Virus record (IMG/VR): IMGVR_UViG_3300022690_001597
Coordinates: 1 to 27,794 of that record
Origin: a virus
Strand: one strand, 5' to 3'
Length of the DNA: 27,794 nucleotides
The notes under the pieces were generated by a model. It did not search any database. It saw only the letters and a program-made list of their open reading frames with translations, and was not told the origin of the DNA. A program made the translations under genes and the position numbers. Below, one piece after another: positions 9,914-14,528 of the stretch; the first letter of the stretch is position 1; each line of letters begins with the position of its first letter.

Positions 9914-10442
9914 CTTGGTCTTCTCTTAAATGCTTTAAAACACCGCACATATATGTAAATTTTTCATCATTAGGAACATAATATCTATCCCAAGCAATAT
10001 CTATAGACTTTAATATCATCTCAGCGCTATTACTTTCTAATAAACGCCTAATATCTTTTTCTCCTTTTTTTGTAATATAATTCTCTCCATCAGAGGCTTC
10101 TTCCCAAGCGTCTAGAAATATTTTTATCTCTTTTTTCTTTAATTTCTTTGACTTTTTTATATACCTATAATATGCATTCAATTGAGACTTTTTCTCCTCA
10201 AGCTGTTTCATTTCTAATTCAAACTTTTCTCCCTTTGTCTTTGATATATCAACACTGTCACCAGCCTTTCCTCTATTGCAATCAAAACAAGAAGTAATCA
10301 AATTGATTTCTTCATCGCCTCCTCCATCCTTTCTTGAAACCATGTGATCTGCTTCAAGTATCACGTCAGGTGGTTTTCTTCCACAATATTGACATGTGAA
10401 ATTATCTCTTTTAAATATCTTGAAACGAATTCTTTTTGAAAT
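9906..10442 (-). CDS. HNH endonuclease family protein with long C-terminal domain
   Basis: The sequence RFKIFKRDNFTCQYCGRKPP, ILEADHMVSRKDGGGDEEIN, LITSCFDCNRGKAGD is a full HNH/zinc domain: Cys17 and Cys20, DH at 32-33, Asn near 47, Cys52 and Cys55. The first GTG or ATG codon in this frame lies inside the domain. The family normally begins M-S-K-R-I-R-F, and ISKRIRF begins at an ATT codon (10440-10442), so I infer an ATT start; the frame is closed by TAA at 10470. The ~120 residues after the nuclease are Lys-rich and helical (YYRYIKKSKKLKKKEIKIFL) and do not belong to the HNH core. The gene precedes the replication protein. The start region overlaps one arm of the inverted repeats at 10451-10540. 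Confidence 0.75.
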   Translation of the reverse strand: MSKRIRFKIFKRDNFTCQYCGRKPPDVILEADHMVSRKDGGGDEEINLITSCFDCNRGKAGDSVDISKTKGEKFELEMKQLEEKKSQLNAYYRYIKKSKKLKKKEIKIFLDAWEEASDGENYITKKGEKDIRRLLESNSAEMILKSIDIAWDRYYVPNDEKFTYMCGVLKHLREDQDG

Positions 10443-10450
10443 TGAAATTT

Positions 10451-10540
10451 TTCGCAGGGATAAAATTATTTACTCCTATTGACTACCATACACAAAAACT
10501 ATCCCTGCGAAGAGTTAGGAAGAAGTATGGTAGCCAGTAG
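10451..10540. ncRNA. Interleaved inverted repeats forming a possible pseudoknot
   Basis: TTCGCAGGGA (10451-10460) is the exact reverse complement of TCCCTGCGAA (10502-10511). CTATTGACTACCATAC (10476-10491) pairs with GTATGGTAGCCAGTAG (10525-10540) with one mismatch and one G-U. The arms are in order A-B-A'-B', which gives an H-type pseudoknot, or two competing states. A third partial copy, TTCGCAGGA, lies at 10558-10566. It could be a 5' leader regulatory RNA for the minus-strand HNH gene, the start of a plus-strand RNA, or a protein-binding operator or origin. Confidence 0.55.
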
Positions 10541-10577
10541 TAACAAAGAATCTCATTTTCGCAGGAAGTTAATGTAT

Positions 10578-10740
10578 CCCCACCTTACACCAAACAGTGT
10601 GCGATAGTCAAGGGGTTCATCAAATAATAATACGGCATAGTTAAGCCATTATTCCAAACACAAGGAAAGATTGTGTTTGAACTCATAATAAGAAAGCCGA
10701 AGTTTCAGAGGTGGGAATACTCCACCTCTATTAATACCCG
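10578..10740 (+). ncRNA. Hairpin-dense noncoding stretch
   Basis: No credible protein gene. Short perfect hairpins follow one another: ACAC/GTGT (10587-10590/10597-10600), CCCC/GGGG (10578-10581/10612-10615), CAAACACAA/TTGTGTTTG (10655-10663/10671-10679, loop GGAAAGA), and AGAGGTGG/CCACCTCT (10707-10714/10722-10729, loop GAATACT). CCCACC at 10579-10584 can also pair with GGTGGG at 10710-10715, closing the whole segment. This looks like part of a large structured RNA; the strand is inferred from the downstream units. Confidence 0.5.
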
Positions 10741-10758
10741 CTAATTATCAAAAAACAT

Positions 10759-10787
10759 TTGACTTTCCTTTTTATTTTTGCTAAGTT
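10759..10787 (+). promoter_or_regulatory. Sigma70-like promoter before the tRNA-like RNA
   Basis: TTGACT (10759-10764), a 17-bp spacer, then TAAGTT (10782-10787). The spacer is T-rich and matches that of the promoter at 11890 (TTGACTTTCnnTTTTATTT), which supports both. It would drive the RNA cluster starting at 10876. The -10 box is weak. Confidence 0.5.
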
Positions 10788-10875
10788 GAAATCGTCAAAG
10801 AGAGAAAGCACAAGCATAGCCTTCGAGCAACGCTTCTAGTCGCTTAATCAGAGACATGAATTGATCTTTTATATA

Positions 10876-11136
10876 GCGGGGGTGGCGGAATAGGTAAACG
10901 CTAGGCAGTTTGCGCTGCCGAGAAGCAAAGGACTCTGTGATCTTAATCGAAATACTCAGAGAATGACTAGCCGCCAAATATTTTGAGAACAGAGTAGTAG
11001 AGTGCCAAGCTGCGGTGTTCCCTTGTGTGAGAGTTGATCCCGTGTGGCAACGGAGTACCCTGACAACATATACGGGCTATAAGGACTCAAAGCTGAATAT
11101 TTGGTCTCTGTAGGGTGCAAATCCCTGCCCCCCGCA
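10876..11136 (+). ncRNA. tRNA-Leu-like cloverleaf with ~190-nt insertion in the variable region
   Basis: Acceptor GCGGGGG (10876-10882) pairs with CCCCCGC (11129-11135), then A. A leucine-type D arm follows (TGGCGGAATAGGTAAACGC, 10883-10901). The next hairpin is GGCAG/CTGCC (10904-10908/10915-10919), whose loop TTTGCG has 6 nt instead of 7. The T arm is TAGGG-TGCAAAT-CCCTG (11111-11127), with G replacing the usual T55, and one extra C lies before the acceptor. Between the anticodon-like arm and the T arm are 191 nt (10920-11110). They are closed by GAGA/TCTC (10920-10923/11105-11108), CCAAATATT/AATATTTGG (10974-10982/11096-11104) and TTGAG/CTCAA (10983-10987/11086-11090). Inside are a CTCTG/CAGAG hairpin and interleaved GTTG/CAAC and CCCGT/ACGGG pairings, a possible pseudoknot. 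No CCA is encoded. Alternatives are a tRNA with an intron or part of a larger RNA. Confidence 0.7.
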
Positions 11137-11242
11137 ATCGTAGCTTAGACTGAGGTGGAATGATTCATATCTCCTCGGTCAGAAGGGTATCAAGGACGGA
11201 GCGCGCCTTTCTCTCCGATCCCGTCTCAGTCTAGGTTACGAT
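11137..11242 (+). ncRNA. Long hairpin RNA domain, copy A
   Basis: ATCGTAGCTTAGACTGAG (11137-11154) pairs along its full 18 nt with CTCAGTCTAGGTTACGAT (11225-11242), using two G-U pairs and no mismatch. The enclosed ~70 nt contain further pairings (GAGG/CCTC near 11153-11177, GGAG/CTCC near 11200-11218). It begins one base after the tRNA-like element. Its arm sequences recur in copy B at 11325, so this is a repeated RNA module. Function unknown. Confidence 0.65.
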
Positions 11243-11248
11243 CAAAAT

Positions 11249-11320
11249 GTGGGAGTTTGAGGGAATATATTGAATACCTCAAATGGAATTCCTTCTGGAG
11301 TGACTTTCAATAACTCCCAC
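11249..11320 (+). ncRNA. 72-nt structured element between the two long hairpins
   Basis: GTGGGAGTT (11249-11257) pairs with AACTCCCAC (11312-11320). Inside, TGAGG/CCTCA (11258-11262/11277-11281) and TATTGAA/TTCAATA (11268-11274/11306-11312) are interleaved, so they form a pseudoknot or alternate. The closing stem is followed by ACCA. Size and 3' ACCA recall a tRNA, but no T arm can be drawn. It is separated from its neighbours by about five bases on each side. Confidence 0.5.
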
Positions 11321-11324
11321 ACCA

Positions 11325-11404
11325 ATCGTAGCTTAGAATGAGGTAAAGGGGAACGGTTCCAGCTAGCATGGTCACTGCTCCTTTACTTCTTTCTAGGTTA
11401 CAAT
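11325..11404 (+). ncRNA. Long hairpin RNA domain, copy B
   Basis: The arm at 11325-11351, beginning ATCGTAGCTTAGAATGAGGT, pairs with 11378-11404, ending TCTAGGTTACAAT. This gives 27 nt of helix with five G-U or A-C-type transitions and one mismatch. The apex holds a GGAAC/GTTCC hairpin. The first 13 nt are identical to copy A, and the 3' arm repeats TCTAGGTTAC. Differences between the copies are mostly transitions that keep pairing, which points to selection on structure. The next gene begins 20 bases later. Confidence 0.65.
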
Positions 11405-11423
11405 TTATATTTTTATCTTCATT

Positions 11424-13673: not shown

Positions 13674-14528
13674 ATGAAAAAGAAAACGATCAGATCAATT
13701 TGCGAGAATAAGTTGAAAGATTGGGTGGAGTCAGTTGACGATGCTAAGGTGAAAAAAGCTATTAGACACAGCGCAATAATTACAGGTGGAAGTATTGCGT
13801 CAATGCTTCTAGGTGAAGATGTAAATGATTTTGATGTTTATTTTAAGAACAAAAAAGACCTTAAAATTGTATGTGAATACTACGCTAAAGACTTTTCAGA
13901 AGTGTTGCTACTTGATGGCGCTGATAATCATGATGAAGAAGAATTTAATGGCGAAGGATTACATCTTGCTATATCGAACCTTGATGGTGACCGTCTCAAG
14001 TTTTGGACTAATGGCGCAGGTGGTTTTGAAACTGTAAATGAGAGAGTAAATGATGGTAAATTTTTACCACTATTTTTCTCAGGAAATTCGATCACATTAC
14101 AAGATGATTTGCAAATTGTCGTGAGGTTTTGGGGTGAGGTTGATGAGGTACATAAAAACTATGATTATATACATGCAACATGCTCTTACGATTTCAGCAC
14201 CAATACGCTCAATCTTCGTAGAGAGGCGATGGAATCACTGCTTACTAAGGATTTGCTGTATACAGGTTCAAAATACCCTATCTGCTCAATCATAAGGTCT
14301 AAGAAGTTTATCAAGCGCGGTTGGAAAATATCCGCAGGACAATACTTAAAGATGGCTTTTCATGTTTCACAGCTAGATCTTACAGATATGCAAGTGCTAG
14401 AAGAGCAGCTTGAAGGAGTGGATATAGCTTACTTCTCAGCGCTGATTAAGGCACTTCACAAAGTAGATGGAAAAAAACTAAAAAATCAGTATATCTTTAA
14501 AATTATAGATAAAATTTTTAATGATTAA
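13674..14528 (+). CDS. Nucleotidyltransferase-like phage protein
   Basis: 284 aa. AIITGGSIASMLLGEDVNDF then DVYF (residues 35-57) is the GG(S)...DxD active-site motif of pol-beta-type nucleotidyltransferases such as CCA-adding enzymes, with D52 and D54 as metal ligands. The C-terminal part (DYIHATCSYDF, MESLLTKDLLYTGSKYPICS, KFIKRGWKISAGQYLKMAFH, SQLDLTDMQVLEEQL) fits a phage family I recall with this layout. Substrate is unknown. With a tRNA-like RNA encoded 2.5 kb upstream, tRNA 3'-end modification is possible but unproven. A T-rich leader precedes it. Confidence 0.75.
   Translation: MKKKTIRSICENKLKDWVESVDDAKVKKAIRHSAIITGGSIASMLLGEDVNDFDVYFKNKKDLKIVCEYYAKDFSEVLLLDGADNHDEEEFNGEGLHLAISNLDGDRLKFWTNGAGGFETVNERVNDGKFLPLFFSGNSITLQDDLQIVVRFWGEVDEVHKNYDYIHATCSYDFSTNTLNLRREAMESLLTKDLLYTGSKYPICSIIRSKKFIKRGWKISAGQYLKMAFHVSQLDLTDMQVLEEQLEGVDIAYFSALIKALHKVDGKKLKNQYIFKIIDKIFND

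Follow-up and report, generated by a model that had tools for sequence, protein, structure and literature searches.

Mimicry of tRNA by noncoding RNA is already known. YrlA, a bacterial Y RNA (RF02553) that occurs in phages too, is a noncoding RNA with a tRNA-mimicking domain. Species 1 RNA of phage T4 (rnaC), a stable RNA of 139 nt, is encoded in a tRNA cluster and carries a tRNA T-arm at its 3′ end. GOLLD and ROOL are RNAs of phages and prophages with unknown function that are often found near tRNA islands, and the linkers of GOLLD sometimes contain tRNAs (PMC12286853). In staphylococcal phages, the structured cabRNA is produced in the terminase region from within the terS/terL coding sequence; it has no sequence in common among phages, it is sensed by CBASS, and no tRNA-like shell has been reported for it (PMC10686824). 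Here we describe a family of phage tRNA-like RNAs that is widespread and apparently without a name, and that is recognised neither by Rfam 15 nor by ARAGORN; no description of such a family was found in the open-access literature.

A structured noncoding block between two gene arms

The window, that is the whole stretch of DNA analysed, is an IMG/VR virus record of 27,794 bases. Its leftward genes (portal, terminase, DnaD-like initiator and HNH endonuclease) end at around 10.4 kb, and its rightward genes (Erf, NinB, NinG and others) begin at 11.4 kb. The terminase and the replication proteins match best to proteins of Bacteroidota phages and of one Bacteroidota genome. The block between the two gene arms had been predicted to be densely structured, poor in T and free of any credible reading frame, and these three points are borne out. 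Its folding energy is −297.5 kcal/mol against −252.0 ± 7.2 kcal/mol for dinucleotide shuffles (z −6.3), with none of 20 shuffles as stable, and its T content is 27.7% as compared to 41% and 34% in the flanks. No ORF of at least 60 aa fits the block, the one exception being a minus-strand frame of 60 aa that starts with TTG, and no protein gene accounts for the region. Folded piece by piece, most modules are more stable than their shuffles (Table 1), whereas positions 10566-10630 (z −0.5) and the interior of the insert of the tRNA-like RNA, 10960-11105 (z −0.2), are no better than chance.

The eight inverted repeats of the original prediction are all present, displaced by a few bases at most. 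They had been described as independent and in part interleaved. The interleaving is real, but the first two repeats are not independent hairpins: their stem coordinates interleave and they form one H-type pseudoknot. The G-U pairs favour the + strand for this motif, which could be a leader or an RNA in its own right; relatives of the pseudoknot block were looked for and none was found. At 10364-10475 (minus strand), the HNH domain of the neighbouring leftward gene begins upstream of the listed GTG start. Since its frame is open to around 10475 without ATG, GTG or TTG, a rare start codon may lie inside the pseudoknot block.

The upstream half of the candidate promoter, TTGACTTTCNNTTTTATTT, has exactly two exact copies in the window, at 10759 and 11890 (+). 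The second copy precedes the next operon, and the two sites are near-identical.

Downstream of the tRNA-like RNA, the hairpin modules 1 and 2 share their 5′ and 3′ ends and differ in their interiors (a 29-nt repeat is 86% identical and a 13-nt repeat 92%). Both retain two G-U pairs, which the opposite strand would render as A-C mismatches; this indicates that the RNA is the + strand. The closed stem between the two modules is not a tRNA and is not matched by the covariance model of the family (R1, see below). A pattern search of IMG/VR for the GTAGCTTAGA hairpins yielded three matches, about the number expected by chance; two of them fall in one coding region shared by two related contigs, and the third has no convincing hairpin. 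The pattern with a longer gap gave no match in IMG/VR.

When the block was searched with every family of Rfam 15, no match was obtained, and E values up to 5 brought only four matches of chance level. Neither the GOLLD, ROOL, tmRNA nor group I models matched, the permissive threshold included, so that the suggested membership of GOLLD or ROOL has to be given up. Likewise, blastn of the whole region against phages and plasmids gave no match at ordinary thresholds. Among the close relatives of the phage, as traced by the DnaD-like, terminase and phrog_4400 proteins, none was shown to have the block region.

Table 1. Features of the block (positions in the window) and stability of the folded modules relative to shuffles
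Feature	Position	Strand	Details	Fold z (interval folded)
H-type pseudoknot	10446..10545	+	stem 1 10446-10462/10500-10516 (17 nt), stem 2 10479-10491/10525-10540	−2.6 (10446-10545, folded without pseudoknot)
Two plain hairpins	10640..10728	+	CAAACACAA/TTGTGTTTG at ~10655-10679; AGAGGTGG/CCACCTCT at ~10706-10728	−3.5 (10636-10735)
Candidate promoter	10759..10787	+	TTGACTTTCCTTTTTATTTTTGCTAAGTT; putative, by consensus match only	
tRNA-like RNA of phage family	10876..11136	+	match of model R1 and family covariation	
Acceptor stem, 7 bp	10876..10882/11129-11135	+	GCGGGGG/CCCCCGC	
U8 and D-arm	10883..10901	+	TGGCGGAATAGGTAAACGC; stem 10885-10887/10899-10901; G18 and G19 kept	
Insert of 208 nt replacing anticodon and variable arms	10902..11109	+	11-bp closing helix 10973-10983/11095-11105	
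T-arm, 6 bp	11110..11128	+	loop TGCAAAT (UGCAAAU in RNA) 11116-11122	
Hairpin module 1	11137..11243	+	22-bp terminal helix ATCGTAGCTTAGACTGAG.../...CTCAGTCTAGGTTACGAT	−4.6 (11134-11245)
Closed stem, then CC(A)	11248..11323	+	TGTGGGAGTT/AACTCCCACA	−3.3 (11247-11324)
Hairpin module 2	11324..11405	+	paralogue of module 1, then T-rich tail	−6.6 (11322-11407)

The tRNA-like core and its family

The acceptor stem of a tRNA-like RNA accounts for the inverted repeat 10876/11129; this core can be read as a tRNA without an anticodon arm and with a D-arm, GGCGGAATAGGTAAACGC, of the tRNA-Leu type. The discriminator is A11136, and CCA is not encoded. The closing helix of the insert ends 4 nt ahead of the T-stem. 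The window copy displays all the features that define the family: the T-loop TGCAAAT, the 6-bp T-stem, the 7-bp acceptor stem and the D-arm GGCGGAATAGGTARACGC. Model R1, built from 40 members with the window left out, was searched against the window with filters off; it matched positions 10876-11136 with 66.1 bits (E 2.1e-15), the next best match reaching 8.3 bits. Bacteroidia tRNA-Leu genes, which have the D-arm in common, gave only 34.7-43.6 bits with the same model. The window copy is almost certainly a member of the phage family. It lies between the gene arms, behind the candidate promoter at 10759. The best complementarity of its insert with its own genome is 13 nt, as compared to 10-12 nt in shuffles, which is little beyond chance. 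At 13674-14528 (+), the window encodes a phrog_4400 protein without a Pfam match; relatives of this protein are labelled tRNA nucleotidyltransferase in some Vibrio and Shewanella phages, which is suggestive beside a tRNA-like RNA that lacks CCA.

Access to the family was given solely by a short D-arm query in blastn at E up to 10. This permissive search with the D-arm half matched unannotated places in dozens of phages. All the matches read, except that of Pseudomonas phage vsMR, which is not a family member, have the same T-arm about 50-160 nt downstream and a complementary acceptor stem, though the sequence of the latter differs among phages. A pattern scan of IMG/VR for the D-arm motif found at least 120 stretches; most of the matches listed combine the TGCAAAT T-loop with a complementary acceptor stem, and among the remainder true tRNAs with TTCRA loops prevail. 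After removal of near-duplicates, 82 members among the matches listed were retained for analysis.

Covariation among these homologues is strong. In an alignment of 46 of the members with 16 pairs (A2), 99.3% of the pair cells are formed and 215 double changes were counted, against 55.7 ± 7.7 in shuffles. Covariation was seen in seven of seven acceptor pairs and in five of six T-arm pairs, and sliding the register reduced pairing to 35-41%. Because the D-arm had been the search key, an independent scan was made with the T-arm alone. A D-arm and a complementary acceptor stem were found upstream in 111 of the 128 matches, and changes in the D-stem were compensated (GGTGG...ACAC, GACGG...ACGT). 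The family is thus no product of having searched with the D-arm.

Named carriers include SPP1 (X89721, 3423-3532, between genes 9 and 11), phi3T, Weissella phages WC29P3 and PWc, Lactiplantibacillus phage Gut-P1 (two copies), Latilactobacillus phage TMW 1.1365 P3, Lactobacillus phage JNU_P10, Brochothrix phage BtpYZU01, Bacillus phage KLEB27-1 and Enterococcus phage EA1; Enterococcus herelleviruses and Lactobacillus phages are among the carrier groups. A phage can have several copies, and one virus of 148 kb gave seven matches. In Bacteroidia chromosomes the D-arm motif is present in 13 of 395 genomes; it belongs to true tRNA-Leu at the places read, and no family members were found there.

The family keeps the acceptor stem, the D-arm, the T-arm and the tRNA elbow sequences, while an insert replaces the anticodon and variable arms. 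Constancy is greatest among the residues of the elbow: U8, A14, A15 with U48, G18, G19 with C56, and U54 with A58 are conserved, with roles assigned from their positions in the established structure of tRNA. All 82 members have G at position 55, where a tRNA has pseudouridine. With the 6-bp T-stem, the acceptor and T stack counts 13 bp instead of 12. The CCA is encoded in one of the 82 members; of 20 true tRNAs on these contigs, 10 encode it.

The inserts measure 8 to 208 nt, that of the window being the longest among the 82. When compared with each other they have almost no sequence in common, one weak pair apart. A helix of at least 6 bp whose end lies 2 nt ahead of the T-stem is enriched (44 of 80 inserts against 12.7 expected). 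Additional domains are inserted at 14 loci in the D-loop, between G18 and G19, and at seven loci in the T-loop, between positions 55 and 56. Contigs L145 (555-680), L160 (3742-3840) and L177 (4492-4590) share a D-loop domain, TCCTGCGG..AGTAGATAAGG.CGTG...GCGCAGGTCACGG, for which Rfam gave no match. In contig L109 (4903-5104, minus strand), a complete tRNA-Lys(UUU) is nested inside the insert; other inserts contain pieces resembling a tRNA T-arm.

Genomic setting and relation to known RNAs

Of 68 family members, 65 run in the same direction as the ORF upstream and 54 in that of the ORF downstream. A tRNA or tmRNA of the same strand lies within 300 nt of 14 of the 82 members, where about four would be expected. 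The original prediction had invoked RNAs of the GOLLD/ROOL kind, found beside tRNAs; the class was wrong, but the proximity to tRNAs holds for the family of the core. In Enterococcus phage EA1 the RNA begins 3 nt past a tmRNA, which suits tRNA-type processing. The phage transcriptional activator phrog_248 is the commonest family upstream (14 of 89 proteins) and terminase small subunits are the commonest downstream, so that many copies seem to head the late operon; the window copy does not.

Strong flanking hairpins are present beside three members with a T-loop insertion (L041, L070 and L098). Around each of these the DNA is noncoding and structured over several hundred bases up to about 1 kb, and in L070 a 26-bp hairpin lies 11 nt past the tRNA-like RNA. 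As a companion of the whole family, strong hairpins are not convincing (present in 10 of 79 flanks downstream of members and in 13 of 178 controls).

Unlike GOLLD and ROOL, to which it has no Rfam match, the core in the window is a tRNA-shaped RNA of 261 nt. The block, of which this core is the recognisable part, is no giant RNA of a known class; the alternative that had been offered, an array of separate small RNAs, fits it better than a single giant RNA. The cabRNA resembles the family in being a structured phage RNA of the terminase region. Species 1 RNA of T4 (L246, 2409-2547, minus strand) differs in its T-loop, TTCGAAT, and by the lack of a matching D-arm; its best score with R1 is 6 bits, confined to the T-arm, and it is possibly an independent analogue rather than a member. 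The YrlA model RF02553 has no match in the window or in most members, and none over the cut-off in 11 records. In EA1 (PQ571287.1), two matches to RF02553 at 109138-109231 and 109310-109423 (+) are sub-threshold, the best with 45.9 bits for a cut-off of 69, and could stem from a Y RNA or a tRNA. The core is not a tmRNA, for which there is no Rfam match and no ARAGORN call.

A tRNA shell around a variable insert

RNase P, the tRNA 3′ nucleases and the elbow-binding proteins all recognise the tRNA shell, and the tRNA scaffold of biotechnology is a constant tRNA shell around a freely varying insert. Because the family has the same design, a natural scaffold with a phage-specific payload is the simplest reading, to which, its function being what we infer, we give even odds. 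The RNA would be transcribed together with the phage operon; owing to its likeness to tRNA, its 5′ end would be cut by the host RNase P and its 3′ end trimmed. The shell would then shield an exchangeable RNA payload that works during infection, in many cases at a late stage, whether as decoy, as antisense RNA or as ligand. The pseudoknot and the long hairpins nearby could be RNAs in their own right or could serve the same transcript as processing sites or as terminators. For the block of the window as a whole, we estimate a probability of about 0.6 for the joint reading, in which a small array of noncoding RNAs separates the two gene arms of a tailed phage, leftward and rightward, and its core is a family member with scaffold and payload. 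That the family constitutes an RNA class which uses host tRNA processing, and whose shell protects a payload at the anticodon side, the D-loop tip and the T-loop tip, is a more tentative proposal.

The payload idea argues from anatomy alone because the inserts share almost no sequence and that of the window has no striking complementarity. Several observations count against the scaffold reading: the insert of the window is no more stable than its shuffles, this copy is without the common context of late activator and terminase small subunit, and long flanking hairpins like its own are not general in the family. Furthermore, a shell without CCA and with a 13-bp acceptor/T stack may perhaps not be handled like a tRNA.

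The same anatomy can be read in other ways. The tRNA-like RNA might be mere punctuation, marking the sites in a long phage transcript at which host tRNA enzymes release neighbouring RNAs or messages, with an insert that has no role of its own. The co-directional neighbour genes, the adjoining tRNAs and tmRNA and the unrelated insert sequences among phages all agree with this; however, long inserts with a positioned closing helix, and domains common to several phages such as that in the D-loop of L145, L160 and L177, exceed what punctuation needs, and we consider it unlikely. It is likewise improbable that the RNA is chiefly a decoy or ligand whose D- and T-loops bind an elbow reader of the host or phage (an RNA chaperone, a modification enzyme or a defence nuclease being candidates), the insert only blocking use in translation. 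The constancy of the elbow residues would be accounted for, G55 and the 6-bp T-stem would make a poor elongator tRNA, and the additional insertions sit exactly at the tips of both loops. These same insertions, on the other hand, would disturb an elbow reader, and the gene of TROVE/Ro60 (Rsr), the partner of YrlA, PF05731, is absent from the 16 phage records tested, although it could be encoded by the host.

Descent from tRNA-Leu (RF00005) is a separate matter. The D-arm is identical to that of Bacteroidia tRNA-Leu, from which the family probably arose, and U8, A14, A15, G18, G19 and the layout of acceptor stem and T-arm are held in common. The family differs from tRNA-Leu by the missing anticodon arm, the 6-bp T-stem, the loop UGCAAAU in place of UUCRANN and an insert of up to 208 nt. 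For the core to be a tRNA-Leu gene split by an intron, one would look for a split anticodon stem, and there is none; ARAGORN finds no tRNA with or without introns, the Rfam tRNA model does not match, and group I models have no match at E up to 5. A decayed pseudogene, for its part, would not resemble 82 members that keep the same non-tRNA T-loop with full covariation. Hardly any credence is left for either version.

If the scaffold-and-payload reading is true, a natural tRNA-scaffold platform exists across many phages, classical laboratory phages included. Tailed phages of very different hosts, among them SPP1 and phi3T, appear to have an RNA that is nameless in annotation tools and in Rfam. 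The covariance model could annotate it in many phage genomes, and the family would offer a natural model for the tRNA scaffolds of biotechnology. A constant shell with a variable payload raises a testable question: of what use to a phage is a tRNA that is unable to read codons?
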